Positions 2,112-37,183 of a stretch of 44,435 nt of DNA are shown in pieces. Each line of letters opens with the position of its first letter. Positions within the stretch are counted from its first letter, which is position 1. The DNA is from Marinobacterium litorale DSM 23545. GTDB lineage: Bacteria; Pseudomonadota; Gammaproteobacteria; Pseudomonadales; Balneatricaceae. The position numbers and the translations under genes are program-made. The stretch covers positions 1 through 44,435 of the forward strand of contig NZ_AUAZ01000033.1 in NCBI RefSeq assembly GCF_000428985.1, written 5' to 3'. The notes beneath the pieces are model-generated. The model made no database searches, was not told the origin of the DNA, and was given only the letters and a program-made list of their open reading frames with translations.

Positions 2112-2123
2112 TACTTTGGTACC
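2112..2123. promoter_or_regulatory. Candidate regulon box TACT-TT-GGTA upstream of exaC
   Basis: The sequence TACTTTGGTACC matches the inverted repeat TACT-NN-AGTA at seven of eight positions and lies about 136 bp before the exaC start. An 11-base stretch, ACTTTGGTACC, is repeated in inverse orientation upstream of the porin gene (37173-37183). The regulator is unknown; inference only. Confidence 0.4.
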
Positions 2124-2189
2124 GGTTTTTATCGCCCGCGACGACCCACTCCCGAACGCTTAATCCCTGAAAAAAGCGGCGTTAGAAGT

Positions 2190-2195
2190 TATAAT
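2190..2195 (+). promoter_or_regulatory. Candidate -10 element of luxS
   Basis: A perfect TATAAT lies 39 bp before the luxS start. The -35 hexamer at the usual spacing (CTGAAA, 2167-2172) is poor, so this is only a candidate sigma-70 promoter. Confidence 0.4.
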
Positions 2196-2233
2196 GGGAG
2201 ATTAAATCCACCTTATCCTTAGAAGGATGATCT

Positions 2234-2746
2234 ATGCCTCTTCTAGACAGCTTTACCGTCGATCACACACGCATGCACGCACCGGCAGTGCGTATCGCCA
2301 AGACGATGAACACCCCGAAGGGCGACCCGATCACCGTTTTTGACCTGCGCTTCTGCCTGCCTAACCAGGAGATTCTTTCAGAGAAAGGTATCCACACACT
2401 GGAGCACCTGTTCGCCGGTTTTATGCGCGAGCACCTGAACGGCGACGGCGTGGAAATTATCGACATATCACCGATGGGCTGCCGCACCGGCTTCTACATG
2501 AGCCTGATCGGCACACCGGGCGAGAAAGACGTTTCGAACGCTTGGCAGGCTTCAATGCAGGATGTCTTGAACGTGAAAACCGAGGGCGATATACCCGAGC
2601 TGAATAAATACCAGTGCGGAACCTACACCATGCACTCCCTGCAGGAAGCGCAGCAGATCGCCCGCAATATTCTGGATCGCGGCATTCAGGTCAACAGCAA
2701 CGCCGAGCTGGATCTCGACGAAGAGTTTCTGAAAGAACACAGCTGA
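2234..2746 (+). CDS. luxS: S-ribosylhomocysteine lyase LuxS
   Basis: Cleaves S-ribosylhomocysteine to homocysteine and DPD, the precursor of autoinducer-2, in the activated methyl cycle. The 170-residue protein has the family length. The metal site is complete: His54 and His58 in [10 protein letters not shown] and Cys128 in YQCGT, with the catalytic Cys83 in MGCRTGFY. A strong ribosome binding site AGAAGGATG precedes the ATG. It is a single-gene unit divergent from exaC; a REP hairpin follows its stop. No methyltransferase or nucleosidase gene is adjacent, so it is probably a housekeeping recycling enzyme, and signalling cannot be judged from sequence. Confidence 0.97.
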
Positions 2747-2758
2747 TTGGGGCTCCTA

Positions 2759-2805
2759 CCGGGCTACACCCACGTAGCCCGGATGCAGCGAAGCGAAATC
2801 CGGGA
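2759..2805. repeat. REP locus 1 (class A plus an inverted half copy)
   Basis: A class A REP (2774-2805) starts with GTAG and folds as CCCGGAT/ATCCGGG. It is preceded by the inverted fragment CCGGGCTAC (2759-2767), so the GTAG feet face each other. It lies between the convergent luxS and phhB genes. Confidence 0.85.
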
Positions 2806-2807
2806 GA

Positions 2808-3134
2808 TCACCCCAAATCATCAATTTTGGCGGCAATAATAAAGTCGTTCTCATGTAACCCATCGATCTTGTGGGTCCAGATCTCCACCTCCACATGCCC
2901 CCAGCCGAAGCTGATCTCGGGATGATGATCCTCTTCCTCGGCCAGCTCCCCTACCCGGTTCACAAAGCGCAAAGCCTCGGCAAAATTTTTGAACGCAAAC
3001 TCCCGCCGCAGCTTTTTTGCATCGGCGGACAGGGTCCACATGGGCACTTCGCGACTGAGTTCAGCAGCCTTTTCCGCACTCAGCGGCGGCACGCCACCTT
3101 TACAGGGTTCGCAGCTTTTTTCGGATAAAGCCAT
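2808..3134 (-). CDS. phhB: Pterin-4a-carbinolamine dehydratase
   Basis: Dehydrates 4a-hydroxy-tetrahydrobiopterin (or monapterin) during recycling of the pterin cofactor of phenylalanine hydroxylase. The 108-residue protein carries the signature EEEDHHPEISFGW (His70, His71) and a downstream His80, with the usual single-domain length. The ATG at 3134 is chosen because AAGGAGGC lies directly upstream; the open frame extends further 5' without support. No phenylalanine hydroxylase gene is beside it. It lies downstream of the NafY operon on the same strand, separated by a REP hairpin, so co-transcription is possible but not evident. Confidence 0.93.
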   Translation of the reverse strand: MALSEKSCEPCKGGVPPLSAEKAAELSREVPMWTLSADAKKLRREFAFKNFAEALRFVNRVGELAEEEDHHPEISFGWGHVEVEIWTHKIDGLHENDFIIAAKIDDLG

Positions 3135-3211
3135 GGATGCCTCCTTGATGCACCAGATGGGTTTGAACCCAGTGTAGTCAAGAAGGCCCGGTGATACCCG
3201 GCGCAACCTAT

Positions 3212-3243
3212 GTAGCCCAGATGGAGTAAAACGGAATCCGGGA
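3212..3243. repeat. REP locus 2 (class A, single)
   Basis: A GTAG-led class A unit with slightly degenerate left arm (CCCAGAT against ATCCGGG) between nafY and phhB on the minus strand. Confidence 0.75.
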
Positions 3244-3250
3244 TGATCCC

Positions 3251-3970: not shown

Positions 3971-3984
3971 AGAAAACTCCAGGT

Positions 3985-4422
3985 TCAGGCAACAGAAACT
4001 GCACGCAATAACTTGAAGCTGGTCAGGCTCGCTGCCAGATCCAGTGCCGACATATCATCATCATTGCGAATCGCAGGATCAGCACCCAGTTCAAGCAGCA
4101 GGTGGACAATGGCATCTTTACCGCTGGAAGCAGCGTACGCCATGACCGTATTACCAGCCGGGTTGCGAAAATTGATATCACAGCCGGAGGCAACCAGCAG
4201 GCGAATAACCGCTTCGGACTCGGCGTAGCACGCGGCCCAAATTGCGTTATTGCCATACGCATCCACTGCACTGATATCGGCACCCTTCTCAATCAATTCA
4301 CTGATCAGGTCCGCATCGCCAGCCCGGGATGCCAGAATCAGCGCGCAATCACCTTCACCGTTCACTGAATTGACATCCTTTTCCTTCAAACCGCACTGGC
4401 TAAACCACTCAGCTTCCATCAT
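3985..4422 (-). CDS. Small ankyrin-repeat protein of the nafY operon
   Basis: A 145-residue soluble protein built of about three to four ankyrin repeats, visible as GDCALILASRAGDADLISEL, GNNAIWAACYAESEAVIRLL, GNTVMAYAASSGKDAIVHLL and a closing DMSALDLAAS. Ankyrin repeats are protein-binding scaffolds and no catalytic domain is present. GGGAGA precedes the first of two adjacent ATGs. The gene is 14 bp upstream of nafY and 23 bp downstream of the rhodanese, so it is almost certainly co-transcribed. Its partner may be one of these products; that is inference. Confidence 0.85.
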   Translation of the reverse strand: MMEAEWFSQCGLKEKDVNSVNGEGDCALILASRAGDADLISELIEKGADISAVDAYGNNAIWAACYAESEAVIRLLVASGCDINFRNPAGNTVMAYAASSGKDAIVHLLLELGADPAIRNDDDMSALDLAASLTSFKLLRAVSVA

Positions 4423-4445
4423 GACGGATCTCCCGCTTTTATTAT

Positions 4446-4739: not shown

Positions 4740-4781
4740 CTGTCACAGGCTCCCTGTTGTGTATAAATCGGCTTGAAGGGA

Positions 4782-6641: not shown

Positions 6642-8420
6642 TTAACGGCTGGCCATCTCAGCGCTGGCCGGAAGTTTGAAGGTCCAGACGGAGCCGCCCT
6701 GGTTCAGGTGCTTAACGCGCTTGGCAACTTCACCACCCCACAGTGGTACCGCGCCACCCCAGCCGGAAACAACGGAGACATACTGCTCGCCATCCATTTC
6801 CCAGGTGATCGGTGAACCAACGATGCCGGAACCGGTGTTGAACTTGTACAGCATCTCACCGGACTCGGCGTTGAATGCCATCAGGTAGCCTTCCGGGTTA
6901 CCGGTGAAGACCAGGTTACCCGCTGTGGCCAGAACACCACCCCAGAGCGGTGCGTAGTTTTCATAACGCCACGCCTCTTTGCCGGTCTTCGGATCGATGG
7001 CACGCAGAACACCGATGTACTCTTCGTTGGTCGGATGGATGGTGAAACCGGCACCCAGATAGGCAGCGCCTTTCTTGTAGTTAACCGGCTCGTTCCAGAT
7101 ATCCATCTCCCACTCGTTGGAGGGGACATAGAAGTATCCGGTGTCCTGGCTGTAAGCCATCGGCATCCAGTTTTTGCCACCCAGGAATGACGGAGCCGCT
7201 ACAACGGTCTCGCCTTTCTTGGCCGCTGCCGGGTTGCCCGGGCGGTTAGCATCGTCATAGATCGGACGGCCATTCTCGTCCAGGCCCTTGGCCCAGGTCA
7301 TCTTATCCACGAACGGGAAGCCGCGGATAAATTCACCGTTCTCACGGTTCAGGACGTAGAAGAAGCCGTTACGGTCAGCGGTAGCAGCCGCCTTCACGGT
7401 TTTGCCATTCTCTTCATAGTCGAAGGAGATCAGCTCGTTCACACCGTCGTAGTCCCAGCCGTCGTGCGGCGTGGACTGGAAGTGCCACTTGATGGTGCCG
7501 TCATCCGGGTCGATCGCCAGGCGTGAGGAGGAGAACAGGTTGTCACCCGGACGCATGTGGGAGTTCCAGGGAGCCGGGTTACCGGTACCGATCAGTATGC
7601 TGTCGGTATCCGGATCATAGTACCCACCCAGCCAGGTTGCCGCGCCACCGGTCTTCCAAAGGTCACCCGGCCAGGTCTGGCCCGGCTTGCCACCAGAGAT
7701 GCCGTTTTCGACTTTCTTGCCGTCTTCGTAGACATAGCCCATGTGACCTTCCACGGTCGGACGAGTCCACACCAGATCACCGGTTTTGGCGTCGTAGGCT
7801 TCCACCTTACCGACCACACCGAACTCACCACCGGAGACACCGGTAATGATCTTGCCCTTAACAATCATCGGAGCCGCAGTCAGCGAGTAACCTTCCTGAT
7901 AATCGGCAACGGTCTTCTTCCACACGGTCTTACCGGTGTCCTTGTTCAGAGCCACCAGCTTGGCATCCAGTGTGCCGAAGATCACCAGATCGTCGTAGAG
8001 TGCTACACCACGGTTGATGACGTCACAGCACGGCATGATGCCGTCTGGCAGACGGGCGTTGTATTCCCATAGCTCTTCGCCGGTTTTGACATCAACGGCG
8101 AATACGCGGGAGTAGGAACCGGTCACGTACATGACACCGTCCTTCACCATCGGCTGAGATTCCTGACCACGCTGCTTCTCACCACCGAAGGAGAAGGACC
8201 AGACCGGACGCAGCTCCTGGACGTTGTCAGTGTTGAGTTTGGTCAGCGGGCTGAAACGCTGCCCCTGGACGCCGAGACCGTTGGAGACGACATCATCTGT
8301 CGTCAAATGGTCTTTCAAGATATCTTCGTCGGTTACACCGGCCTGTGCAACGCTAGCCGTGGACATCGCTGCAACGAGGGCAGTAACTGCAAAGCCTGTA
8401 CTGAGCCCGAGTCGTTTCAT
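6642..8420 (-). CDS. pedH: PQQ-dependent alcohol dehydrogenase, lanthanide type (PedH/ExaF-like)
   Basis: Periplasmic quinoprotein that oxidises short-chain alcohols to aldehydes and passes electrons to a c-type cytochrome. The 592-residue precursor has a signal peptide ending near residue 27 (SVAQA) and the eight-bladed propeller. A vicinal Cys131-Cys132 pair sits in PDGIMPCCD. The catalytic motif reads WDYDG with Asp323 and Asp325. The second Asp is the established mark of lanthanide-binding enzymes (XoxF, ExaF, PedH); calcium enzymes have Ala, Ser or Thr there. The paralogue at 15866 has Ser. AAGGAGAC precedes the ATG. It lies 190 bp below an ABC transporter gene of the same strand with a REP pair between, so it probably has its own promoter. 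Confidence 0.94.
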
Positions 8421-11120: not shown

Positions 11121-12035
11121 TCAGGGCGTATCGATGTAAAGGCTGGGTTTTTCGTAAGTCACGCCGTAGCGAGCAAACAGCTCGGCCATGGATCCATCAC
11201 GGATCATCCGGTCGAACAGGGTCTCCACCGCATAACCCAGGTCACGACTGTCTTCCGCGACGGCGACACCGATATCCCAGGCCTGCTTGCCCATGGCGGG
11301 AAAGCCGTTCTCTGCCCGGTGATATTGATCACCGGTTTCGCGGTGCAGCAGCCAGTCGATCTCGGAGCGCATCCCCATCACGGCACTGACCTCACCCGCT
11401 TTCATGGCAGAAAATGCCTCGCGAGGGTTGGCGTAGTGATGGGTTTTATCACGCATCCGCCCCTGCAATGCAGACGTCAGATAGAAAGCCGGCAGGCTAT
11501 CAACCTCAACACCGATGGGGTGGTACTGAAACTTGGCCAGGGTACGAACCGAATCCAGCTTTTGGGTATCGAATGCCAGCTGCCAGCGCTCCTGATGATA
11601 AGGGGACATCATCACCACCAGCTCGTTAACCAGCAGCCCCAGGGAATCGCGCTTATAGGAGAAGTCACGATCATAAGGTACACGCAACATCACATCCGCC
11701 ACATTCTTCAACGCCAGCGGATTATCTTCGTCCTTATCGAGGTAGTGCCCTTTCCAGACGTTGTTACGCAGGTCATCGTCCAGCGTTTCGTCCGGCGTCA
11801 TCCAGTGCAGGCGGAACTCGACACCCAGCTCCTTGGCGATAGCACGGCCAAGATCCACATCGATCCCCACCGCCTTATCGCCCTCCATGTAGGAGTATGG
11901 CGGAAAGTCGCGATAAGCACCGATACGGACAAACCCGGAGGCGATCACATCATCGTATACCCGCGCCTGCGACGGCCCGCCGATCAACAGCAGGCCGGCT
12001 GCGAGCAGACCGAGAAAGTTACTCCATCTCTTCAT
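11121..12035 (-). CDS. Quinoprotein-associated periplasmic binding protein (MxaJ/XoxJ-like)
   Basis: Predicted periplasmic protein of 304 residues with signal sequence (FLGLLAAGLLLIGGPSQA) and the type 3 solute-binding fold: FVRIGAYRDFPPYSY, DKAVGIDVDLGRAIAKELGVEF and GEVSAVMGMRSEIDWLL. Relatives (MxaJ, XoxJ and the quinoprotein dehydrogenase-associated binding family) are coded beside PQQ alcohol dehydrogenases and are thought to help mature or interact with the dehydrogenase rather than to transport. I start at the ATG at 12035 with GGATG upstream; an ATG three codons earlier is possible. The gene overlaps the 3' end of the cytochrome c550 gene, so the two are coupled. Confidence 0.88.
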   Translation of the reverse strand: MKRWSNFLGLLAAGLLLIGGPSQARVYDDVIASGFVRIGAYRDFPPYSYMEGDKAVGIDVDLGRAIAKELGVEFRLHWMTPDETLDDDLRNNVWKGHYLDKDEDNPLALKNVADVMLRVPYDRDFSYKRDSLGLLVNELVVMMSPYHQERWQLAFDTQKLDSVRTLAKFQYHPIGVEVDSLPAFYLTSALQGRMRDKTHHYANPREAFSAMKAGEVSAVMGMRSEIDWLLHRETGDQYHRAENGFPAMGKQAWDIGVAVAEDSRDLGYAVETLFDRMIRDGSMAELFARYGVTYEKPSLYIDTP

Positions 12036-12465
12036 GCCGCACATCCAGGTAAGTCTTGATCGCCCAGAGCGCTTCCTGGCTCAACGTCTCGGCCATCTTC
12101 GGCATGTACACCTTGCCATCACGCACGGCACCGTTGATGACACGGTACTTGTACCAGTCATCGCCATCGTAATCCGGCGTCAGCAGGCGCAGGTCCGGTG
12201 CAATACCGCCGGAGATCGCTTCCAGCCCGTGGCAGCGTGCGCAGTTCTGGTTATACGCGGAGGCACCGATTTCGTACGCCTTTTCAAAGTCATCGCTCGG
12301 TTTACGGTAGGGGTTGGTGTCAGGCCACTCCTCGCCCAGTGGGGTAAGCCCCTCAACGTCAACAGCCTGGGGCGTTACGTCGCCATGAGCCAGTGCCTGG
12401 GAACTGATACCCGCCGTCATCAGAGCCGACAGCGCCAGAGCGGGAACAGAGAGATGCTTTGCCAT
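12019..12465 (-). CDS. pedF: Cytochrome c550, electron acceptor of the PQQ alcohol dehydrogenases (PedF/ExaB-like)
   Basis: Periplasmic monohaem cytochrome of 148 residues. A signal peptide ends near SSQALA (residue 26). The haem site is CARCH (Cys75, Cys78, His79) and the likely sixth ligand is a Met in VYMPKM (121 or 124). The PedF pattern includes WPDTNPYRKPS and APDLRLLTPDYDGDDWY. By family it takes electrons from PedE and PedH and hands them to the oxidase. It heads a unit with the MxaJ-like gene and perhaps the SsuABC-like transporter. A half-conserved regulon box lies about 130 bp upstream. Confidence 0.93.
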   Translation of the reverse strand: MAKHLSVPALALSALMTAGISSQALAHGDVTPQAVDVEGLTPLGEEWPDTNPYRKPSDDFEKAYEIGASAYNQNCARCHGLEAISGGIAPDLRLLTPDYDGDDWYKYRVINGAVRDGKVYMPKMAETLSQEALWAIKTYLDVRHEEME

Positions 12466-12591
12466 AATACTTCACCCGTTTTTGTTATGAACTCTGTCTG
12501 CCTCGCAGAAAGATCCACGAGAGCAGTATTGAATTCATAATGGATGAGGTAGCGCCGCTGTTGGATTGAACCTTGGCAGGTTTGGACAGGG

Positions 12592-12603
12592 TCTTTAGTA
12601 CTA
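12592..12603. promoter_or_regulatory. Candidate regulon box upstream of cytochrome c550
   Basis: The sequence TCTTTAGTACTA keeps the right half (TTAGTACT) of the palindrome seen in perfect form before erbR (31072-31089), with a poor left half. It lies about 133 bp before the cytochrome gene. Confidence 0.4.
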
Positions 12604-15283: not shown

Positions 15284-15865
15284 TATGCCTTCCTCAATTC
15301 AATCCGTTGACCGAAGCTGTCGAGCAAAATCCACTCCAGATAAACTTTTTTGTTTATATATCAACTCTCTAAGATAAATACAGGCCACTTCAACGGCAGA
15401 TAGGCGCCTCTCATTTGGGTCGACGGCGGCAAACGACTTCCCCTGCTGAGTTGATAGATATTGAACGTCCCCTCAGCTCAGCGAGCTGCCGTAACTTGGC
15501 AGACTCAAGCATAAAGAGGTCGCCACCCTGGTCGGCATTGCTCCCATGAACCGTGAAAGTGGCTCCTAAGCCATAACTCGAACAGTCATAGGGGCCTCGT
15601 CCGTATCCTGCCCTGCGGCGCGACCTTCTTTTTCATCTTGTCGATTAATCCAATACTAACCGGAGGAATTAGAACCTTGGATCTGCCTGTTTAGGTCCTG
15701 GGAATACAGCGCTTTGGAATTAGGTTTTTTTCCCTCGTGATTCAAGCCCGGTTCCCGGATTAGCAGGGCCCGGCTCCCTCTGATCTGCCGCGGGTGATAG
15801 CAAGAATGTAGGGGACATTGGAGCAGTGCTTGCTGCCCCTAACCAAACCAGAAAAGGCTATCCCA
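15284..15865. other. Long intergenic region upstream of pedE
   Basis: No gene is supported in these 582 bp. Near the left is an AT-rich inverted repeat ATAAAC-TTTTTT-GTTTAT (15340-15357) about 57 bp upstream of the 566-residue protein gene, which may belong to its promoter. Further right are a purine-rich GGAGGAATTAGAA with no reading frame behind it, and a run of seven T (15725-15731). No TACT-NN-AGTA box was found. Such length before an inducible dehydrogenase gene suggests a regulated promoter or a long leader. Confidence 0.5.
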
Positions 15866-18525: not shown

Positions 18526-18570
18526 CTTTTCAAGCAGACCGCTCATAAGGTCATGAGGTCTGCTGAAAAG
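18526..18570. terminator. Hairpin at the 3' end of pedR2
   Basis: CTTTTCAAGCAGACC (18526-18540) pairs with GGTCTGCTGAAAAG (18557-18570) with one bulged base and a 16-base loop. It overlaps the pedR2 stop codon and lies between converging genes. The T-rich arm ends give weak terminator character for both strands. Confidence 0.5.
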
Positions 18571-19201
18571 AAGCGCTGGGCACTAATCCACTGGTAAATG
18601 CCAGATGGACCAACTCAGCTGTAGAGCGGATACCCAGTTTCTGTTTCAGCAATGCGGTGTGGTTCGCCACGGTTTTGGCGCTGATATTAAGGTGCTCCGC
18701 AATATGCTGCGACGATAACCCCCGGGCCAACATGGTAAACACCTCCATTTCCCGCTGAGTCATACCCTTAAGACGCCGGTCGGTGCCATCCTGCTGGCAG
18801 GCCAGGCGGGTCGCAAGCTCATGCTCCACATAGGGTTTGCCCTTTAAGGCAGCCCGCACAGCATCCACCATCACCTGAGGCGGACAGCTTTTAGTGATAT
18901 AACCCAGAACGCCCAGTTGCAGCGCCTGGTTGGCCAGCGGTGTTTCCTCGTACATCGAAAACACAAGAATACGTGCCTCGGGCTTGCGCTCCAGAATCAG
19001 GCGCGCGACCTCCAGGCCACTGATATCCGGCAGATGGATATCAAGTACGGTGAGCTCAGGCTGCTGTTTTTGCCATACCGAGAACGCCTCGCGTCCACAA
19101 CCAACCTGCAACATCTCGTAACCCGGCAGCAGCGCATCCAGCAGGCTTGCATAGCCATGACGCACAACCGCGTGGTCGTCACATAACAGTATTTTAGGCA
19201 T
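18551..19201 (-). CDS. pedR2: LuxR-family response regulator of the quinoprotein locus (PedR2-like)
   Basis: A 216-residue NarL-type regulator: receiver domain (about 3-120) with acidic pocket DD at 8-9, phospho-acceptor Asp54 (TVLDIHLPD) and Lys in ITKSCPP, then a LuxR helix-turn-helix (MTQREMEVFTMLARGL, about 145-200). The start at 19201 overlaps the stop of the kinase gene and has GGAGGGG upstream. The order kinase-regulator-pentapeptide-pedE matches the P. putida ped locus, where PedS2/PedR2 governs the switch between calcium and lanthanide enzymes, so that role is inferred here. EraR or MoxX are alternative names for relatives. Confidence 0.88.
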   Translation of the reverse strand: MPKILLCDDHAVVRHGYASLLDALLPGYEMLQVGCGREAFSVWQKQQPELTVLDIHLPDISGLEVARLILERKPEARILVFSMYEETPLANQALQLGVLGYITKSCPPQVMVDAVRAALKGKPYVEHELATRLACQQDGTDRRLKGMTQREMEVFTMLARGLSSQHIAEHLNISAKTVANHTALLKQKLGIRSTAELVHLAFTSGLVPSASFQQTS

Positions 19202-20468
19202 ATACCCCTCCAGACAGACTTCTGACCGGCAACTCCAGCAGCACTCCCAAACCTTCGCCTTGTGTCGACTCCAGGCGCAATGTCCCACCCAGAGAGCGAG
19301 CGCGTTCGTGCATGGAACGTAAACCCACCCCTGAACGGGCCCCCGGTGCCAGTCCACAACCGTTGTCCTGAACCGATATTCGAAGGCATTTTTCGGAACC
19401 ATCGACGCGCACGACCACCCGGGTCGCCCCTGCGTGCCGGGCGCTGTTGGTAAGCGCCTCCTGCACCAGCCGATAGATATGTGTCGCCGAATCGATATCG
19501 AGCGGCGGGATAGCACTGAAGCTCTCGATATGACAATTGATCGCGCTGGATTCTCGCCAACGCTGGACCAAGTCGCTCAACGCATCACTCAGTCCAAGCT
19601 CTGTGAGCACCACAGGGTGCAGGGAGTTGATTAACCGACGAAACCCGGTCTGCATAGCGGTGCAATCCGTCTGAATTCTTCGGGCGGTTTCGACCACTTT
19701 TCCCTCGTTGCCGGAGCACGTTTCCACCAACAGCGCACTGGCTTGAATACCCGCCAAGTATTGGCCAAGGTCGTCGTGTAACTCACGGGCCAGACGACTT
19801 CTTTCCCGTTCCTGTAAGGTCATCAACTCTTCAGTAAGGCGTTGGTTGTCCTGGCGTTCCGACTCCAACGCCGATGCCATACCGGATAGATAGCGCGAAA
19901 GTTTTCTCAATTCCGGCTGATTGTAAGCGCGTAAACGGGTGGAAAAATGGGTTGCCGGGTATCGATCAAGCGTACCGACCAAATGGCGTAGGAGGCGGTT
20001 CCCGCGCAGTAAGCCCCAGGCCACTGCAAGGACTGACAGCACTGCCGCCGACGCAAACAGCCCGATCAGCTGCAGCACTGAGTCCCACACCTCCTCGACT
20101 TCATCCGTTGGATCGCTGCTCAGTATTAGCCAGCGGCCATCTGCCAACCGAAACTGTCTCTCTGGATACGCAACGTTGTCAGCCCAAACCAAATGCATAA
20201 ACCAGGTTGGCACCTCGCTCGACAACGGCTGGGACTCGGAGAGGCCATCGAGCGTTAACCTGACATGGCGTAACTTTAGATCCAACAGTGTTTCCAGCGT
20301 ACCGGAGTCCGCCAGGGTAGCCGCCATCAACGCACTGGTTTGCGCCATGGCGGCTTCCAGCTCACGCTGCACATCCTTCCTGGCCTGTCCAATGATACCT
20401 GCAAGGCTCAGCAGTGTAGCAACGAGGAACAGCGCAAGAATAGACGCGTGGAGCCGCCAGTTTCTCAT
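19194..20468 (-). CDS. pedS2: Sensor histidine kinase with MoxY/LapD-type periplasmic domain (PedS2-like)
   Basis: A 424-residue inner-membrane kinase. Two transmembrane segments (about 8-27 and 131-153) bracket a periplasmic domain of about 100 residues of the LapD_MoxY_N type. A HAMP-like linker leads to a HisKA_3 dimerisation domain with His231 in LARELHDDLGQYLAG, and an HATPase domain with LVQEALTNSARHAGA, DNGCGL and GVGLRSMHERA. Related PedS2 reports lanthanide presence in P. putida; the same job is plausible since both metal types of dehydrogenase are present here. The gene overlaps pedR2 by 8 bp and begins 3 bp after the cupredoxin-like gene, forming one operon. Confidence 0.9.
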   Translation of the reverse strand: MRNWRLHASILALFLVATLLSLAGIIGQARKDVQRELEAAMAQTSALMAATLADSGTLETLLDLKLRHVRLTLDGLSESQPLSSEVPTWFMHLVWADNVAYPERQFRLADGRWLILSSDPTDEVEEVWDSVLQLIGLFASAAVLSVLAVAWGLLRGNRLLRHLVGTLDRYPATHFSTRLRAYNQPELRKLSRYLSGMASALESERQDNQRLTEELMTLQERERSRLARELHDDLGQYLAGIQASALLVETCSGNEGKVVETARRIQTDCTAMQTGFRRLINSLHPVVLTELGLSDALSDLVQRWRESSAINCHIESFSAIPPLDIDSATHIYRLVQEALTNSARHAGATRVVVRVDGSEKCLRISVQDNGCGLAPGARSGVGLRSMHERARSLGGTLRLESTQGEGLGVLLELPVRSLSGGVYA

Positions 20469-20470
20469 AC

Positions 20471-20905
20471 TTATTTAACGATGAACTCGCCCACCATCCC
20501 CTTGTTTTCCAGCCCCTCCGAGTAGAACTCGAAGGTGCCCGGTTTGATCGGCACAAAGAAGATTTCGGCTTCGCCTTCCTGTTCGAACTCCAGTTCGGTC
20601 AGGGTCATCGCCTTGATCTCCATGTCGCCCGCTTCCACTTTGCGCAGGTAGATCTTGGTGAAGAACTCCGGGGACTGGATCGCGTACTCTTTGCGGCCGG
20701 AGGAAATGATCTTCAGGCTGTAGGCTTGCCCGGTCTCCATCTCGTAGCGTTTGTGTGACATGGAGTAGTCGGACTCTTCACTGCCCAGCACAAGATCGGG
20801 CAGCTCCATGGGGCGTGTGGTCAAGTCTCCTGCGGCCTGGGCGCCTGCGCTCAATAGCAGGGTGACGCCAAGTGCAGCGATTCCTTTGCCGATGTGATTT
20901 TTCAT
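20471..20905 (-). CDS. Periplasmic cupredoxin-like protein without copper cysteine
   Basis: A 144-residue exported protein. The start is the ATG at 20905 with AAGGGGAG upstream; the signal peptide is GIAALGVTLLLSAGAQA. The mature part resembles a single cupredoxin fold: GQAYSLKIISSGRKEYAI, EIFFVPIKPGTFEFYSEGLENKGMVGEFIV. It contains no cysteine, and the usual Cys-His-Met copper cluster before the last strand is missing, so it may bind no copper or use another site. It is first of the operon with pedS2 and pedR2 and divergent from pedA1, sharing a perfect regulon box. A partner role in sensing or metal handling is conceivable but unproven. Confidence 0.85.
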   Translation of the reverse strand: MKNHIGKGIAALGVTLLLSAGAQAAGDLTTRPMELPDLVLGSEESDYSMSHKRYEMETGQAYSLKIISSGRKEYAIQSPEFFTKIYLRKVEAGDMEIKAMTLTELEFEQEGEAEIFFVPIKPGTFEFYSEGLENKGMVGEFIVK

Positions 20906-20976: not shown

Positions 20977-20988
20977 TACTTGAGTACC
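20977..20988. promoter_or_regulatory. Perfect TACT-NN-AGTA operator between pedS2 operon and pedA1
   Basis: TACTTGAGTACC contains the perfect inverted repeat TACT-TG-AGTA, about 77 bp before the cupredoxin gene and 91 bp before pedA1. The 16 bases AATGCTACTTGAGTAC (20972-20987) recur exactly at 35782-35797 upstream of nosP. Probably a binding site of a LuxR-family regulator serving both directions. Confidence 0.7.
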
Positions 20989-21072
20989 ATTTGTTTGCGA
21001 CCTTAAGCATATTTCCACTGCGCAGCCGGCCCCCTAAGCTGACTGTATCGATAACAACAACAAGTTCGACCT

Positions 21073-22242
21073 ATGCTGAAAACCACACGTCATCTGGCAT
21101 TTGCCGGGCTGATGCTCGCGCCGATTGCCGCCACAGCGACTCCGCTGACTATGGAGATCGGCTACATCGGCGAGATCGTCGATGCGGGCCCTGTGCTCTC
21201 CAATATCATTCCGGAGCCGGAAGATGCCGGCCTGCAGGGTGCCCGTCTGGCAATTACCGACAGCAACACCACCGGTCGTTTCCTTAAGCATCACTACCAA
21301 CTGCACGAAGTTCAGAGCAGCGATTCGCAGGCGCTGCGCGAGGAAGCTTTGGCGCTCTACCAACAGGGCGTGAGAGCCTTTGTTCTGAATACTTCGGCAA
21401 CAACACTCGCGGGACTGCGTGAAGCGCTGCCGCTGGATGCGCTGTTGATTAACGCGGGAAGTCGTTCCGATAAGCTGCGTACCGAGCAGTGCCTGCCCGA
21501 ACTGCTGCACACGATCCCCTCCCGCGCCATGCTGGCGGATGCCCTGGCTCAATGGCTGATGATGCGCCGCTGGAACCGTTGGATGCTGGTGCGCAGCAAC
21601 ACCGAAGAGGACAGTGCGTTTGCTGCGGCGATTAACCGTGCAGCTCACCGCTTTGGTGGCCGGATTGTGGAGGAGAAAGCCTGGAGCTTTGATACCGACC
21701 TGCGCCGTACCGCTCAAAAGGAGCTGCCCCCGTTTACCACCGGTGAAGAGTACGACGTGGTCATTGTGGCGGATGAACGCGGCGATGTGGGCGAGTTTTT
21801 GCCCTATAACACGGGCCTGCCCCGCCCGGTTGTCGGTACTCAGGGAATGATGCCGGTAGGCTGGCACAAAATGATCGAGGCCTGGGGCGCGGCGCAGCTG
21901 CATAGTCGCTTTGAGCAACAGGCCGAGCGCTGGATGAACGAGAAAGATTATGCCAGCTGGGCAGCCGTGCGCACCATTGCGGAGGCGGTGACACGGACCA
22001 ATGCCACCGATAAGCCGACACTTCAAAATTACATTTTGTCAGATCAGTTTGAGCTTGCTGCTTTTAAAGGGCGGAAACTGAACTTTAGAAACTGGAGTGG
22101 CCAACTCCGTCAGCCTATCGCGCTGGTTCACCCCCGTGCACTCGTTTCCAGCTCTCCGCAAGAGGGCTTTCTCCACCCCAAAACCGACCTGGACACTCTC
22201 GGCTTCGATGCGCCCGAGAGCCGTTGTCAGGTTGCTGAATAA
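21073..22242 (+). CDS. pedA1: ABC-type binding protein of the PQQ alcohol dehydrogenase system (PedA1-like)
   Basis: Periplasmic protein of 389 residues with signal peptide (HLAFAGLMLAPIAATATP) and a Leu/Ile/Val-binding-like fold: ALALYQQGVRAFVLNTS, RAMLADALAQWLMMRRWNRWMLV, and YDVVIVADERGDVGEFLPYN. It belongs to the family of binding proteins found only with PQQ alcohol dehydrogenase systems. In P. putida the PedA1A2BC transporter is needed for growth that depends on rare earth elements, so lanthanide uptake is the likely role. No good ribosome site is seen before the ATG. First gene of a four-gene operon with pedA2, pedB and pedC. Confidence 0.88.
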   Translation: MLKTTRHLAFAGLMLAPIAATATPLTMEIGYIGEIVDAGPVLSNIIPEPEDAGLQGARLAITDSNTTGRFLKHHYQLHEVQSSDSQALREEALALYQQGVRAFVLNTSATTLAGLREALPLDALLINAGSRSDKLRTEQCLPELLHTIPSRAMLADALAQWLMMRRWNRWMLVRSNTEEDSAFAAAINRAAHRFGGRIVEEKAWSFDTDLRRTAQKELPPFTTGEEYDVVIVADERGDVGEFLPYNTGLPRPVVGTQGMMPVGWHKMIEAWGAAQLHSRFEQQAERWMNEKDYASWAAVRTIAEAVTRTNATDKPTLQNYILSDQFELAAFKGRKLNFRNWSGQLRQPIALVHPRALVSSSPQEGFLHPKTDLDTLGFDAPESRCQVAE

Positions 22243-31071: not shown

Positions 31072-31089
31072 CCAGTACTTTAGTACTGG
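31072..31089. promoter_or_regulatory. Perfect palindromic operator upstream of erbR
   Basis: CCAGTACT-TT-AGTACTGG is an exact 8-bp inverted repeat with a two-base spacer, about 98 bp before the erbR start. It contains the TACT-NN-AGTA core shared with the sites at 20977 and 35787. It may mean autoregulation or control by PedR2. Confidence 0.75.
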
Positions 31090-31178
31090 TCCGCTGCCAC
31101 GATGGTTGAATTCATCCATTGGCGCTAAGCAGGTTTAATGAAACTCCCGATAATAAACACCATAAGAGGGATCAATAC

Positions 31179-31847
31179 GTGTACCGAATATTGATTGCCG
31201 ATGATCACCCGCTGTTCCGTGAGGCGATCACCAATGTTATTCAAACCGGCTTTCCCGGCTCGGAAACGATCGAGACCGAAGACCTGGAAACCGCCCTCAA
31301 GCTTGCCACGGAAGATGACGAGCTTGATCTGGTGTTGCTGGATCTGAATATGCCGGGCATGCATGGTCTCAACGGATTGATATCCCTGCGTAATGAAGCG
31401 CCCACAGTACCGGTGGTGATTGTCTCTGCCGAGGATGATAAGCAGATCGTTTTGCAGGCGATAACCTGCGGTGCGGTCGGCTTTATCTCTAAATCCTCTC
31501 CCCGCCCTCAGATGACCGAGGCCCTGCAACAGATTCTGAATGGCAACGTTTACCTGCCCTCCGACATCATCCGTTCGGAAGCCGGCGATAACCGCCGCCA
31601 TCGCCGCATGAATGACCCGCAGATTCCACCGGAGCTGCTCAACTCCCTGACCCGAAGACAACTGCTGGTGTTGGAGCGGATGGCACAGGGTGAATCCAAC
31701 AAGCAGATTGCCTACAACCTCAACATTGCAGAAACAACGGTAAAAGCCCACGTTTCCGCAATTTTGCGCAAGCTCGGCGTTCACAACCGGGTTCAGGCGA
31801 TTCTCTCCGCCAGCGATATCGATTTCGCGCATTACCTGCGGCGGTAA
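31179..31847 (+). CDS. erbR: LuxR-family response regulator (ErbR/AgmR/PedR1-like)
   Basis: A 222-residue regulator: receiver domain with DDH at 8-10, phospho-acceptor Asp55 (VLLDLNMPG) and Lys in ISKSSPRPQ, a linker, and a LuxR helix-turn-helix ([26 protein letters not shown]-terminal 60 residues). The start is the GTG at 31179 with AAGAGGG nine bases upstream; a longer frame from 31119 lacks support. ErbR/AgmR proteins activate quinoprotein ethanol oxidation genes in Pseudomonas. Its neighbour on the other side of a REP pair is nahK-nosP, as in P. aeruginosa where erbR and that pair are close. An operator palindrome precedes it. Confidence 0.85.
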
Positions 31848-31971: not shown

Positions 31972-34557
31972 TCACCCATCAATCAAATGGCTGAGCATCG
32001 TCTTGAGCTTTAACGGCCGGATCGGCTTATGCATCAGCTGGTAGCCGAGCTCGCGCATCTGTTGCTTAAGCTCGTTGCTGTAGTTCGCCGTAACCATCAA
32101 GACCGGCGGCTGGTCCGGCCGCTGCTGCATGATCTCGGCGACCACATCCACCCCGTTTACATCGTTATCGAGATGGTAGTCGGCAATCAAAAGATCGAGC
32201 GGCGCGGTACCCACGGCGAGCTGTTCACGCAGATGCTCCAGACTCAGGGCCGTTACCGTCTCACACCCCCAACCGCCGAGCAGCGTGGACATACCATCGC
32301 AGATCGACTGGTCATTATCGATCATCCAGATATGACGTCCGCGCAGTCCCTCACCAAAGTCACGGTGCTGAAGCTGGGGCACGGTATGCTGTGGAGCCAG
32401 CTCACCGTAGGGAAGCAATATGGAGAACAGGGAACCTCGCCCCGGTTGCGAGAGCACGTTGATCGAATGGCCGAGCATGCGGGCGATCTTCTCGACAATC
32501 GCCAGCCCCAGTCCCAGCCCCTTGTCCTGACCGGTGTTTTTACCCCGTTTGAACTCCTGGAAGATGGTTTCAAGCTGATCCGTGGGGATGCCACTCCCGG
32601 TATCCAGAACCTGCAACTCCAGTCCGTCAGGGCGGCGACGGCATCCCAGCAGAATGCGTCCACCGGGATCGGTATAGCGTACGGCGTTGGAGAGCAGGTT
32701 ACGCACTACCCGGGCCAGCAGCGCCGGGTCGGTGCTGACTACTGCACTGGATATCACCGAGTCGAATGCCAGGCCCTCACTCTGAGCGATATGGGTATAT
32801 TCGGAGGCGATATTATTGAGCAGCTCACTTACATTGAATGCGGAGATATCCGGCTTGATCGCCCCGGCATCCAGCTTGGAGATGTCCACCAACGTACTGA
32901 GCAGGCGTTCCACATCCTCCAGCGAGTTACTGACGGAGCCGATCAGGTGGCCGATGCGCTCCGGCATGGGCTGGTCGAGCAAGGCACCGGTAAACAGACG
33001 CGCTGCGTTCAGCGGTTGCAACAGGTCGTGACTGACAGCGGCCAGGAACTTGGTCTTCGAGAGATTAGCCTGTTCCGCCTCGCGCTTGGCTTCCCGCAAC
33101 CGCGACTCGATGGTCTTACGCTCACCGATCTCCTGACGCAGCTGCTGGTTAAGGTCGGTCAGCTCGGAAGTACGCTCACGCACACGCTGCTCCAGGTTCT
33201 GATAGGCCTGCTGCAATGCCATGGCGGTACGACGACGCTCGGTGATATCGCGGATCATGACGAAGAAACCCACCGGCTTGCCCTGGGTACCGATATTGGG
33301 CACGTAGGCCTTGAGCAGATAGCGGTTCTCACCGACCGCATTGGGCTCTTCGATCTCGAAGGTGACGCTCTCTCCGGCCAGTGCCCTTTCAGCATAGGGT
33401 CGCAGGCGCTCAAACTGGGCCTCGCCGTGCACCCGGCCAATGGTTTCTCCCAACAACGAACCGCGCGGCCAGCCATACCAGTCATCATAAACCTTATTGG
33501 TAAACTGGTAGCGCAGATCCTCACCCACATAGGCGATCAACGCGGGGACATTATCGGTGATCAAACGGATCCACTGCTCGCTCTCTCGCAGGGTTTCGGC
33601 GTATCGGGAGTGTTCGGTGATATCGGTATAAGTGTTTACAAAACCGCCTGCAGACAATGGATGGGTACGAATTTCGACCACTCTGCCATCGCTTAGCTCC
33701 TGGGTTAACTCGCGTAGCGGCTGATCCTGCTCGTCCCGGCTGCGCGGGGTCAATAACGCCACTTCGGAGCCGGACATCAGGGTTTCAAAGCGCGGGGCAT
33801 CGGTGAGTGCTCCTGAGCGAAGCCCGGTCAGGTTTAGGAAAAGGTCGTTCCAGATCTCCACGCGGCCGGCGGCATTAACCAGTGCGACGCCCTGGGAGAG
33901 GTTGTCCACGGTGCTCTGCAGCAAGCGGGATTTCTGCGCCAGTGCCTGCTCGCGCTGGGCTGCCTCCGAGGCTTTCAGCTCGGTGATATCGGTATAAAGT
34001 GCTACCAGCCCGCCATCGCCAGTCTCACGGCTGCTCATCTGCATCCAGCGACCGTTGCAGAGGCGGTAGATATTGGCTTCTTCGCCCTGCCCGACCTGGG
34101 TTTCCACAATCAGGTTGCGCTCCAGCCCCAGCTCCAGGCAGCGCGACAGGGAGATACCGCGCTGAATGTCTACGCCGCACAGAGCCCAGATCTCACGAAA
34201 GCGGTTATTGAACAGCACCAGCTTTTTATCCGCATCAAACAGCGCGAACGCATCAGAGATACTTTCGATGGCGTCGATCAAGCGCTGGTGGGCGGTGGCG
34301 GCCTCTTCGTTGGCTTGCTTAAGCGCCTGGTTACTGTGTTTGAGATCGTGCAAAGCGGCGTTGAGCGCCTCGGTACGTTCACGTACCTGTTCCGCCAGAA
34401 TGACCGAATGTTCGAACGCGGCATAGGGCTCTGCCCGCAAACCACTGCTGGCCTCGACCCGTTCAACCAACGCGTTACGAATTTTATTCAGGCGAGCATT
34501 TTCAGCCTCCAGTTCTGAAATACGGGCGCGGAGCTGCTCCGGGCTCTGTTCATCCAT
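31972..34557 (-). CDS. nahK: Hybrid sensor histidine kinase NahK/ErcS'-like
   Basis: A soluble 861-residue kinase: coiled coil (about 1-90), two PAS_7-type domains (about 95-210 and 220-340), a further PAS domain (about 350-465), coiled coil, HisKA with the His in AAVSHDLLQPLNAARLF, HATPase (LLSNAVRYTDPGG, DTGSGIP, GLGLGLAIVEKIARML) and a C-terminal receiver with Asp in LLIADYHLD. No membrane segment is seen. This matches NahK (ErcS'), which is paired with the nitric oxide sensor NosP and has been linked to ethanol oxidation control. The ATG at 34557 overlaps the nosP stop by 8 bp, setting the start. Confidence 0.9.
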   Translation of the reverse strand: MDEQSPEQLRARISELEAENARLNKIRNALVERVEASSGLRAEPYAAFEHSVILAEQVRERTEALNAALHDLKHSNQALKQANEEAATAHQRLIDAIESISDAFALFDADKKLVLFNNRFREIWALCGVDIQRGISLSRCLELGLERNLIVETQVGQGEEANIYRLCNGRWMQMSSRETGDGGLVALYTDITELKASEAAQREQALAQKSRLLQSTVDNLSQGVALVNAAGRVEIWNDLFLNLTGLRSGALTDAPRFETLMSGSEVALLTPRSRDEQDQPLRELTQELSDGRVVEIRTHPLSAGGFVNTYTDITEHSRYAETLRESEQWIRLITDNVPALIAYVGEDLRYQFTNKVYDDWYGWPRGSLLGETIGRVHGEAQFERLRPYAERALAGESVTFEIEEPNAVGENRYLLKAYVPNIGTQGKPVGFFVMIRDITERRRTAMALQQAYQNLEQRVRERTSELTDLNQQLRQEIGERKTIESRLREAKREAEQANLSKTKFLAAVSHDLLQPLNAARLFTGALLDQPMPERIGHLIGSVSNSLEDVERLLSTLVDISKLDAGAIKPDISAFNVSELLNNIASEYTHIAQSEGLAFDSVISSAVVSTDPALLARVVRNLLSNAVRYTDPGGRILLGCRRRPDGLELQVLDTGSGIPTDQLETIFQEFKRGKNTGQDKGLGLGLAIVEKIARMLGHSINVLSQPGRGSLFSILLPYGELAPQHTVPQLQHRDFGEGLRGRHIWMIDNDQSICDGMSTLLGGWGCETVTALSLEHLREQLAVGTAPLDLLIADYHLDNDVNGVDVVAEIMQQRPDQPPVLMVTANYSNELKQQMRELGYQLMHKPIRPLKLKTMLSHLIDG

Positions 34558-35710
34558 CGCGGTTGCGCTTGCCGATGACGACGCCGGTAAAGGTCTGGTT
34601 GATGTGCATACCGTCATACTGTTCACCATAGGTGTTGAAGCCAATTACACGATGTTGCTGAAGGAATTCCGACATCCGCTGATCCTGCTCCCGGTGCTCC
34701 AGTTCCAGACGCCGCAGAAAACAGTCACAGCCCAGCGTGATCAACGGTGGACCCACCTCGGTTTCAAGACGGGTGAAGACACTGTTCAGGTCCTCGATCA
34801 TCGAGCCCGGCTGCATGGCCGTGAGTACAATGCCGTTCTCCACCGCACAGTAGAACGTCAGGCTGCCATCCTCGTTAACCCGCTGAATGGAGCGCACGTA
34901 GTACTCCTGGCCGATACGAACCGCCACCGGGTTCAGCGCAAACACCTTATGATCCAGCGCGTCCAGCGGCACGCCGACCACCCGGGCATACTCCTCGGCT
35001 GCGGGTATGGCGTTAAGTTCAAAGACGGTACGGGTCGCCGGGTCAGCGGCGGTCACCACCAATTTTTCCTCCAGGGACGTCATGTGGTGGGTGGTAAATA
35101 CTTCGAAATCGAGCGGCGTTGAGATCAACACGACAATAGCGGCCTGGGTATAGAAGCGGCCTTTGTGATAAACGTGGGTATTGGTCAGGTGGTTATCATC
35201 CCCCGCGGAGCCCCCAAAAGAGGGGATACTGCCAAGCGCCGAGTTCAGCGTCATCAGCACCAGCTCCTCCTGGCTGGAGAGCCCATCCAGCAGCGTCAGG
35301 GCAAAGCTGTGCCCTTTTATCGGAGCGACCTGACGCGAGCGGCTCTGGGTAACGAGCCCTGAAACCAGGTTCTGGGCATCGTTGAGGCTGAACCCCTCCA
35401 GCGATTCGATCAGTGCCACATCGATTGAAAACAGGTTTTGATCAAACCCCACCGCCGTAATCGAGCCCCGGTCGTACCCGCGCGGTGTCACCTCGCCCGC
35501 CGTGGTGCAGCCGGCCAGCTCGACGCCATCAAATGCCAGATGCAGCTCGCGACTCAGCGTTTCAAGGTCGTATTCGGCGGAACAGAAGAAAAGCACAAAC
35601 CCGAGGTCCGGCCCCATCAATTGATCGGCCAGCTCTTGCGCCGCCAGCTTCGCATCCTGCTGCTTCGAAAGCGCGGTTTTCACCGGCTCTTTGATAAAGG
35701 GGGCATTCAT
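34550..35710 (-). CDS. nosP: FIST-domain sensor NosP-like
   Basis: A 386-residue cytoplasmic FIST protein: FIST_N (about 35-230; FFCSAEYDLETLSREL, CTTAGEVTPRGYDRGSI, SFGGSAGDDNHL) and FIST_C (about 235-380; YARVVGVPLDALD, LTAMQPGSMIEDL, FNTYGEQYDGMHINQT). NosP proteins of this family bind haem and nitric oxide and modulate the kinase coded next to them. The gene overlaps nahK and shares its promoter, with a perfect TACT-NN-AGTA box 82 bp upstream. Haem ligation cannot be verified here. Confidence 0.88.
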   Translation of the reverse strand: MNAPFIKEPVKTALSKQQDAKLAAQELADQLMGPDLGFVLFFCSAEYDLETLSRELHLAFDGVELAGCTTAGEVTPRGYDRGSITAVGFDQNLFSIDVALIESLEGFSLNDAQNLVSGLVTQSRSRQVAPIKGHSFALTLLDGLSSQEELVLMTLNSALGSIPSFGGSAGDDNHLTNTHVYHKGRFYTQAAIVVLISTPLDFEVFTTHHMTSLEEKLVVTAADPATRTVFELNAIPAAEEYARVVGVPLDALDHKVFALNPVAVRIGQEYYVRSIQRVNEDGSLTFYCAVENGIVLTAMQPGSMIEDLNSVFTRLETEVGPPLITLGCDCFLRRLELEHREQDQRMSEFLQQHRVIGFNTYGEQYDGMHINQTFTGVVIGKRNRDG

Positions 35711-35786
35711 AACCCGATACTCCCGATAACGGTGGAGAGACTTACTCTAGTTGATTGTAGGCGTTGGAGACACGGGGAGGTAATGC

Positions 35787-35798
35787 TACTTGAGTACT
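35787..35798. promoter_or_regulatory. Perfect TACT-NN-AGTA operator upstream of nosP-nahK
   Basis: TACTTGAGTACT, with the 16-base identity AATGCTACTTGAGTAC shared with the pedA1/cupredoxin intergenic site. Centre about 82 bp before the nosP start. Suggests the sensor operon belongs to the alcohol regulon. Confidence 0.7.
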
Positions 35799-35842
35799 GA
35801 AAAGGCTATCTGGCGGGTGTAGAAGTCAGCGTGTCGGTACCG

Positions 35843-35893
35843 GAAAAATAAAAGCCGCGATCCGGATGAAGGGGGGAAGTTCCGAATCGCGGC
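35843..35893 (-). terminator. Intrinsic terminator of the porin gene
   Basis: On the minus strand GCCGCGAT pairs with ATCGCGGC across an imperfect inner stem and is followed by TTTTATTTTT. It lies 29 bp after the porin stop. Confidence 0.88.
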
Positions 35894-35921
35894 CAGCGGT
35901 GAAGCTGAAAGATGATGATTA

Positions 35922-37016
35922 TTACCAGGTCAGCACCGCACCCACTGCGAGGGTATCCATATCGGTACCGCCTTCCGGTTCATAGACACTGTATTCACCG
36001 ACAAGTTTCAAGTTGTCGTTAATATCATAGAACAGCGCCCCGGCGGAAAGTTCACTTTCGGTACCGCCCGCATCCACACTGCCGTAGGAAAGAACCCCAC
36101 GCACTGCATTATAAGTGTAGGACGTCTGCACCAGATAGCCATCCGAATCCATATCCGCTGCGCTGGAAAGCGTATTGCTGGCGAATGTGGTCGGGATACC
36201 TTCCTGGTCAAAACCGGACGCGGTCAGCTTGAAGCCGCCAACGGCAACCTGAGCCCCGTAGGCAACACCCTGAGCGTCAACGGTAGTGCTGGTGCTATCG
36301 ATCGTTTCACCGGCAGCACCGCTGAGCCAGGCCTTGAACATGCCGCCATCAAACGCACGGGCATAGGTCAGCTCAGCTTCGAAACGCGGCTCTTCGCTGT
36401 AAGTAGCCGGGCTGGTGCTGAAGTCGTAGCTCGGATCCAGGATACCGGCAGCGATCTTGAAGCCGTTCAGATCCGGTGAGCGCCAGGTAATCTGTGCATT
36501 GGGGTTGGCGTAGGGGTAACCGGTGGTGATATTACCGAAGGTGGTCCGTGTAGTACCCTGGGGCGCAAAGCCGACGCCGAGCAGCAGCTCGTCGTTAAAG
36601 ATGTTGCTGCGCGCATAAAGACCAAAGTCCTTACCGAACAGGACCTGACCGAAATCGCCATCGACAGTGGCGTAGAACTGACGTACATCGATAGCGGTGT
36701 CGGTTTTGGACGCGTTAGCGGTGCCCAGATCGTTGGAGTCGTTGATAGTCACCCAGAACGAGGAGCGGCCACCGAGCTTCAGGTCGCCCTGCTGCTTGCC
36801 TACATTGAAACCGATGTAGTTAGGCAGGAACCCCATCCGGACACGGGATACATTCTGATCCCCTTGATCCTGATAGGTATAGAAAGCGTTTAGCAGACCA
36901 TCGGCAGAGAAAGTCGTACCCTTGTGATCGTACAGCTTGATCTCAGCCTGGGCCGTAGCGGCTGAGGCCGCGACGGCCAGCGCCAGCAGCGAGCGGGTCA
37001 GTTTCTTGTTGTTCAT
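35922..37016 (-). CDS. Outer-membrane porin, Gram-negative general type
   Basis: A 364-residue precursor with signal peptide (SLLALAVAASAATAQA) and alternating beta-strand pattern typical of 16-stranded porins (Porin_4-like): EIKLYDHKGTTFSADG, VRQFYATVDGDFGQVLFGKDFG, LTYARAFDGGMFKAWLSG. The last residues are AVGAVLTW, an aromatic end as the BAM signal requires, though Trp replaces the usual Phe. It would allow passive uptake of small solutes. It is monocistronic with a strong terminator. A weak regulon box 161 bp upstream hints at shared control with alcohol oxidation. Confidence 0.9.
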   Translation of the reverse strand: MNNKKLTRSLLALAVAASAATAQAEIKLYDHKGTTFSADGLLNAFYTYQDQGDQNVSRVRMGFLPNYIGFNVGKQQGDLKLGGRSSFWVTINDSNDLGTANASKTDTAIDVRQFYATVDGDFGQVLFGKDFGLYARSNIFNDELLLGVGFAPQGTTRTTFGNITTGYPYANPNAQITWRSPDLNGFKIAAGILDPSYDFSTSPATYSEEPRFEAELTYARAFDGGMFKAWLSGAAGETIDSTSTTVDAQGVAYGAQVAVGGFKLTASGFDQEGIPTTFASNTLSSAADMDSDGYLVQTSYTYNAVRGVLSYGSVDAGGTESELSAGALFYDINDNLKLVGEYSVYEPEGGTDMDTLAVGAVLTW

Positions 37017-37171
37017 ATCATCCCCTTGATGAATTTGTCATGACAGTCAGGGCCCGCCTTCCAGACCCTGCTGACCGATGATTATTCGCGCACGGGGAGT
37101 GCATAAAAACTGATCAGAGGATGGATTTTTCCTGTGCTTTGAAAGAGATACATAAGTGGCTTAAAGGAATA

Positions 37172-37183
37172 GGTACCAAAGTG
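37172..37183. promoter_or_regulatory. Weak regulon box upstream of the porin gene
   Basis: GGTACCAAAGTG reads TACC-AA-AGTG, six of eight matches to the palindrome. Its reverse complement shares ACTTTGGTACC with the exaC upstream site. Confidence 0.35.

Follow-up and report, generated by a model that had tools for sequence, protein, structure and literature searches.

Which regulator owns the TACT-NN-AGTA inverted repeat that recurs in front of alcohol-oxidation genes of Marinobacterium litorale DSM 23545? The DNA concerned is contig NZ_AUAZ01000033.1 of assembly GCF_000428985.1, and the whole analysed stretch of 44,435 nucleotides is called the window here. The original prediction took the repeat, written TACTNNAGTA below, for a shared regulon box read by either ErbR or PedR2. 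Our analysis suggests that the box is probably the operator of ErbR (AgmR), a response regulator of the NarL family. Among related bacteria the box is conserved, it keeps a fixed spacing, it precedes the same member genes, and it co-occurs with ErbR.

The box and its conservation

Is the box more than a repeat that arose by chance? Exact copies of TACTNNAGTA lie at 20977-20986, 31076-31085 and 35787-35796, with no fourth in the window. The perfect copies upstream of the cupredoxin/pedA1, erbR and nosP-nahK genes are thus placed as predicted, the 16 bases common to the 20977 and 35787 copies could be verified, and the 18-bp palindrome at 31076 is present as 8+2+8. The boxes and the genes next to them are as follows.

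20977..20986, + strand: box TACTTGAGTA between the cupredoxin gene and pedA1 (matrix score 29.1)
20471..20905, - strand: cupredoxin-like gene, running divergently from pedA1 (plastocyanin match weak and under the cut-off)
21073..22242, + strand: pedA1, ABC substrate-binding protein of alcohol dehydrogenase systems dependent on pyrroloquinoline quinone (PQQ) (TIGR03863)
31076..31085, + strand: distal box TACTTTAGTA of erbR, within CCAGTACT-TT-AGTACTGG (relatives-only matrix 50.4)
31179..31847, + strand: erbR/agmR, NarL-family response regulator with GTG start (gene order the same as PP_2662-2665)
35787..35796, - strand: lone box before nosP-nahK, reading TACTCAAGTA on the nosP strand (exact copy, conserved)
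34550..35710, - strand: nosP, nitric-oxide-sensing FIST protein (NF041558)
31972..34644, - strand: nahK/ercS', hybrid histidine kinase (NF041832 above cut-off; NF041831 NahK below its cut-off)

A chance expectation of about 0.7 copies per window had been given, which is an overestimate, as 100 dinucleotide shuffles averaged 0.07 copies and never held more than 1. When one mismatch is allowed, the window holds 9 copies against 5.3 expected, and 9 were reached in 6 of the 100 shuffles. The one-mismatch boxes are therefore not clearly enriched; their count on its own was dropped as evidence, and the weak copies required a separate test. A near-copy of the box is also seen at 35743. The proposed genome-wide scan gave 17 exact sites in the organism's own genome (4.38 Mb, 64 contigs). 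The window makes up 1% of this genome and has 3 of the sites (binomial P 0.0006). By our own reading of mechanically called open reading frames (ORFs) of at least 90 amino acids, 12 of the 14 sites outside the window are inside ORFs and 2 are between them. An exact TACTGCAGTA was noticed between ORFs at L005:2544, 257 bp before a small c-type-cytochrome-like ORF; it was missed by the composite models described below.

The comparison of upstream regions in related species supports the shared regulon box. All three exact copies of the window are upstream of genes and conserved in relatives. An exact box precedes nosP in 20 of 27 loci, and 20 of 30 loci have one in the 900 bases ahead of erbR; 0.2 and 0.5 were expected from mononucleotide shuffles. 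Upstream of pedA1 the exact box is found in 4 of 14 loci, and a box with at most one mismatch in 12 of 14 (2.0 expected); the window is included in all three counts. For control genes the upstream regions had no exact box at all (dsbB 0/7, ABC1 0/5 and FADox 0/3, together 0/15). The erbR loci came from an ErbR query with 34 loci, 29 of them (L015-L043) from Marinobacterium, Amphritea, Nitrincola and near relatives; the other five (L044-L048) were distant matches and were dropped.

A composite promoter element

Does the box stand alone? At erbR, pedA1, exaC and the cytochrome c550 gene, it is part of a composite element. Counting from the first T of the box, the box takes bases 1-10, a second site 23-36, and a -10-like hexamer 59-64. 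In the aligned erbR and pedA1 promoters the hexamer has forms such as TGTAAT, TAAGCT and TATGCT, and nothing resembling a -35 TTGACA was seen by eye in the aligned composite promoters, of which no promoter scan was made. At nosP the box occurs alone, in the position that the ACTU motif discussed below takes at acs. The remaining parts of these promoters in the window are listed here.

31098..31107, + strand: proximal ACTU-like site CACGATGGTT of erbR, followed by GAATTC; its first base is 22 bp from the first base of the box
31134..31139, + strand: -10-like TTTAAT of erbR (offset 59-64, composite alignment)
20999..21008, + strand: proximal site GACCTTAAGC of pedA1; TACTTTCTGC and similar in the aligned relatives
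21035..21040, + strand: -10-like TAAGCT of pedA1 (composite matrix, alignment)
2112..2121, - strand: box TACCAAAGTA of the exaC promoter (relatives-only matrix, same layout in relatives)
2090..2099, - strand: proximal ACTU-like site TGCCAAGGGA of exaC (matrix, ACTU match)
2058..2063, - strand: -10-like TAAGAT of exaC (composite matrix, alignment of relatives)
462..1982, - strand: exaC, aldehyde dehydrogenase; the ORF is listed from 2033, and the ATG at 1982 gives the 506-amino-acid form of relatives
12591..12600, - strand: weak box TACTAAAGAC of the c550 promoter (relatives-only matrix)
12569..12578, - strand: proximal ACTU-like site TGCCAAGGTT, then CAAT (matrix, ACTU match)
12537..12542, - strand: -10-like CATTAT of c550 (composite matrix)
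12019..12465, - strand: cytochrome c550 PedF/ExaB (TIGR04494)
35754..35759, - strand: -10-like TACAAT of nosP, at offset 38-43 from the box, as at acs

A full matrix was built from 20 promoters of relatives, with no rows from the window. It scores the window's erbR, pedA1, exaC and c550 elements at 50.4, 29.1, 10.9 and 1.2, and the best of 20 block-shuffled windows reached -10.1. With a masked matrix the scores are 51.5, 15.6, 9.8 and 10.8, compared with 6.7 for the best of 533,722 shuffled positions. The weaker copies claimed before exaC and c550 are thus upheld by the relatives-only matrix and the conserved arrangement, while the one claimed before the porin, at 37183, was rejected: its matrix score is within the shuffled range and the upstream regions of porins show no enrichment (exact box 0/22; at most one mismatch 5/22, 2.8 expected). 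In one Amphritea locus a composite-like match (L028:16072, score 10.6) was seen 111 bases upstream of the porin gene.

With the masked matrix, the element is found before erbR or a CXXCW-erbR gene pair in all 29 relative loci; the 11 loci outside the training rows score 24.9-52.2, although some are near-copies of training rows. The intervening gene is related to the PQQ-associated CXXCW protein (TIGR03865, copy in L024). Where it stands between element and erbR, as in 18 of the 29 loci, the distance to erbR is 712-888 bp. In the other 11 the element is 104-334 bp before erbR, and the window, where the GTG at 31179 is 103 bases from the first base of the box, belongs to this type. The element therefore travels with the erbR operon, staying ahead of the CXXCW gene where that is present. 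Spacing is also constant at pedA1: among 26 copies from 25 genomes, 24 have box and second site 22 bases apart by inspection (two of them, L205 and L210, with a poor hexamer), and the remaining two are L200, whose element was found by the model (locus L101), and L215, a diverged second copy. The exaC promoters of 8 other genomes have the same arrangement, with the hexamer starting at 59 or 60. Two masked-matrix matches (L023:15225 and L042:4896) lie 125-138 bases before pedF, although the training set held no c550 promoters, and one model match in a relative precedes pqqE (TIGR02109, 584 bits). Taken over several species, the box thus stands before erbR, pedA1, exaC, pedF and nosP, and once before pqqE. 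A sequence-only model from relatives alone was also run on the own genome; with 150 of 338 first-look candidates scored, two matches reached E<=10, and the window holds both.

Two neighbouring arrangements were noticed. At exaC, luxS (2234-2746) is divergent and the box lies between the two genes (2112-2234); luxS and exaC also adjoin in the same-genus genomes G024, G027, G028 and G030. In G224, from another gammaproteobacterial family and with an ErbR of 71% identity, a longer palindrome around TACTTTGGTA was seen between a c550 relative and pedA1 (L188:1500-1580).

Likeness of the proximal site to the ACTU motif

What is the second site of the composite? Its sequence fits the ACTU motif, the site of the ErbR paralogue CrbR/ErdR. 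In Pseudomonas fluorescens CrbR/ErdR is described as controlling acs through this imperfect inverted repeat at -52 to -36 (PMC5715377, consulted in part). An ACTU matrix was made from 11 acs promoter sites of the host's family and 3 published sites, and slid along 41 composite promoters. It peaks at offset 23 with a mean of 3.07, and the runner-up, offset 1 or the box itself, has -2.77. The peak is 4.08 for the erbR group, 0.85 for the pedA1 group and 4.39 for the window's exaC and c550 promoters, and the proximal sequence matched ACTU in all three groups. The distal box does not match, having TAC..GTA in place of GAC..GTC, no NAAT after it, and a centre near -65. The acs promoters of the host's family have (G/T)ACCAATGTCTAATT and, about 37 bases further, a TATAA-type hexamer, in 11 of 12 loci (the exception being L184); in the composite promoters the hexamer starts 36-37 bases past the first base of the proximal site, the same as at acs. 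At the organism's own acs gene, which erdR/crbR follows directly, the promoter (L174:13018) has an almost perfect ACTU motif. The original prediction contained neither the composite architecture nor the ACTU-like site, and did not name ErdR/CrbR as a rival binder.

ErbR as the candidate binder

Of the two binders first proposed, ErbR emerges as the best candidate on sequence grounds and PedR2 does not. The element occurs at E<=1e-3 in 23 of 31 relatives with ErbR and in 1 of 26 without it (57 genomes, Fisher P 3e-8; kinship ignored, at most 84 candidates scored per genome); in the host's family alone the numbers are 22/27 and 1/9 (P 3e-4). The element is thus mostly found where ErbR occurs. 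Of 369 genomes sampled across the class, 3 have ErbR at E<=1e-70, the own genome included, and a plasmid search gave only distant ErbR relatives below 60% identity (best 48%). The lone genome with the element and without ErbR is G030, of the same genus, which has boxes before pedA1 and exaC and lacks the nosP-nahK-erbR stretch in its assembly. Its porin match ends at residue 124 (L132:15116-16293), and this genome looks like a case of recent loss, with orphaned operators, or of an assembly fault.

The proteins were also compared over 18 residues of the recognition helix, where NarL, the best solved relative of ErbR, aligns. This stretch is nearly identical in ErbR and ErdR and differs in PedR2: SAKTVANHTALLKQKLGI. 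Sequence alone argues strongly against PedR2, but ErdR may well be a binder too, chiefly at the proximal site.

How might such promoters work? With the -10-like hexamers taken as real, the distal box has its centre near -65 and the proximal site has its own near -44, and the layout is that of an activator-dependent promoter. At erbR, pedA1, exaC and c550, one dimer would sit on TACTNNAGTA near -65; a second, two helical turns further downstream on the same face of the helix, would occupy the degenerate ACTU-like site near -44. The two dimers would jointly recruit RNA polymerase to a promoter that has a -10-like hexamer but no visible -35 element. At nosP-nahK the single box would be placed directly at about -44. 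Phosphorylated ErbR may then activate erbR itself and, at the same time, the genes for the aldehyde dehydrogenase, for the cytochrome that carries electrons, for lanthanide uptake (a cluster) and for NosP-NahK. Transcription is predicted to start about 7 bases past the hexamers ending at 31139, 21040, 2058, 12537 and 35754, which would give leaders of some 26 to 70 bases ahead of erbR (GTG 31179), pedA1, exaC, c550 and nosP. Binding and activation are inferred, as are these start sites and the choice of ErbR over a paralogue at the individual sites. Membership of nosP-nahK is consistent with the other name of NahK, ErcS'.

Several points weigh against this reading. Occupancy of the box by ErbR is a prediction, and ErdR, given its near-identical helix and its presence in 29 of the 31 genomes with ErbR (and in 13 of the 26 without), is still a candidate binder. 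The genomes are related and many of those with ErbR supplied rows of the model, so the counts are not independent and are partly circular. Eight of the 31 ErbR genomes have no element match at E<=1e-3, and the family of G224 (48 genomes) gave only three weak matches (E 0.044-0.049), that of G224 itself before pedA1. What is more, 24 of the 25 genomes with pedA1 have ErbR, the remaining one being G030; since pedA1 nearly always goes with ErbR, co-occurrence cannot separate the target genes from the regulator. The element precedes pedF in only 2 of the 7 relative loci holding that gene, and the other 5 have no match. Real sequence has a higher background for the masked matrix, and three unassigned or reversed-box places in relatives score 8.8-10.6, including L021:9718 (8.8, inside a CXXCW gene) and L028:9241 (9.5, box in reverse orientation). 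The masked scores of exaC and c550 barely differ from these, so the two sites rest on the full matrix and conservation. They were not recovered by the relatives-only genome model at E<=10 and were retrieved genome-wide only by a model containing them; likewise, the model that brought up the exaC promoters of other genomes (R1) contained the window's own copy. Finally, no box was found before exaA in 9 loci, and an exaA box was rejected; a second exaA query (0/7) returned mostly the same genes and is not a separate test. In the window no box was found before the two PQQ alcohol dehydrogenase genes (6642-8420 and 15818-17725), and both may be otherwise controlled, perhaps via PedR2.

Alternative binders

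Could two paralogues share each promoter, with ErbR occupying the distal TACTNNAGTA and ErdR/CrbR the proximal ACTU-like site, and thereby combine alcohol and acetate signals? The ACTU peak at offset 23, the acs-like distance to the hexamer, the published ACTU position and the presence of ErdR in 34 of 36 genomes of the host's family (including 8 of the 9 without ErbR) all point this way. The proximal sites of pedA1, however, are TACTTTC or GACCTTC rather than GACCAATGTC, ErbR could bind both sites with a helix so near to that of ErdR, and a genome-wide study of ErdR targets in Pseudomonas aeruginosa on acetate names no agmR promoter in the part consulted (PMC9927353). We consider this sharing unlikely. 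The wider idea of two-input promoters, in which ErbR and ErdR/CrbR would read the alcohol and acetate branches jointly while nosP-nahK answers to ErbR alone, is a tentative one with a modest chance.

That ErdR/CrbR alone occupies all sites, with ErbR acting elsewhere, is improbable. The half-site geometry AC-N4-GT is shared and ErdR is nearly universal in the family, but the acs promoters carry GACCAATGTC with no accompanying TACTNNAGTA in the bases inspected. Also, 7 of the 8 family genomes with ErdR and without ErbR have no element at E<=1e-3, though they lack pedA1 as well, which weakens this comparison; the eighth is G030.

The window encodes PedR2 (ExaE/EraR) close to pedA1 and the cupredoxin gene, next to its partner kinase.

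18551..19198, - strand: pedR2/exaE/eraR, response regulator, rejected as common binder
19194..20468, - strand: pedS2, sensor kinase and partner of pedR2, which it adjoins

Long matches to PedS2 (E 2.7e-63 or better, in two pieces in G022) and to PedR2 (E 3e-71 or better) are found in 12 of the 23 element genomes. The other 11 give only weaker, generic matches for both, and the element is kept in all 23, so the box does not depend on this pair (the first search covered 24 of the 29 erbR loci, with L033 left out). PedR2 was rejected as the common binder on this absence and its different helix; moreover, no box was found at exaA, reported as an EraR target in the part of the source consulted (PMC4686015). 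PedR2 is a very improbable binder. It is scarcely credible that the copies arose by chance or mark some DNA feature with no regulatory role. The genome does have 17 copies, and most of those outside the window lie within ORFs, but conservation and fixed spacing in relatives argue for a function, and the copies at nosP, erbR and pedA1 are among the conserved ones.

Comparison with known systems

We therefore return to the box as the probable operator of ErbR. What would such a site add? AgmR/ErbR was first described in 1991 and linked to PQQ-dependent alcohol oxidation in 2002-2004, according to the part of PMC12997753 consulted. The Pseudomonas ErbR/AgmR regulon described there has the same regulator, the same order porin-nosP-nahK-erbR, and overlapping targets (ped cluster, pqq); it is known genetically, whereas here an operator is predicted from sequence. 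In the open texts searched, which did not extend to subscription papers and supplements, no binding site of ErbR/AgmR was found, and the P. aeruginosa papers on high-throughput systematic evolution of ligands by exponential enrichment (HT-SELEX), chromatin immunoprecipitation sequencing (ChIP-seq) and AIDmut-Seq name no motif for ErbR or AgmR in the parts consulted, their supplements not being covered. The new part is thus a proposed site for a regulator that has none in the texts searched, together with the question of sharing with ErdR. A defined operator, spacing and regulon shortens direct tests of ErbR targets and of crossing with the acetate paralogue. It also raises the question what a sensor pair for nitric oxide is doing in an alcohol regulon, and it has relevance to alcohol-responsive promoters as tools. 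A DNA affinity purification sequencing (DAP-seq) study of P. aeruginosa response regulators may contain an ErbR motif.

Among the closest known systems is the ACTU motif of CrbR/ErdR, which the proximal site here matches. Both are inverted repeats with AC-N4-GT arms, with close NarL-family paralogues as known and predicted binder, just upstream of a σ70 promoter. The distal box here differs in its outer T and A (TAC..GTA), in its centre near -65 and in its alcohol-oxidation targets. DosR operators share the ACT-NN-AGT core, and FixJ also uses sites near -69 and -44, so that the activator-dependent layout is similar. NarL heptamer pairs and the operators of DosR and FixJ belong to the same protein family, while sequence, spacing and regulon differ. 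Judged by its sequence, the box is likely a real conserved operator with a likely owner, and an object of an ordinary kind.

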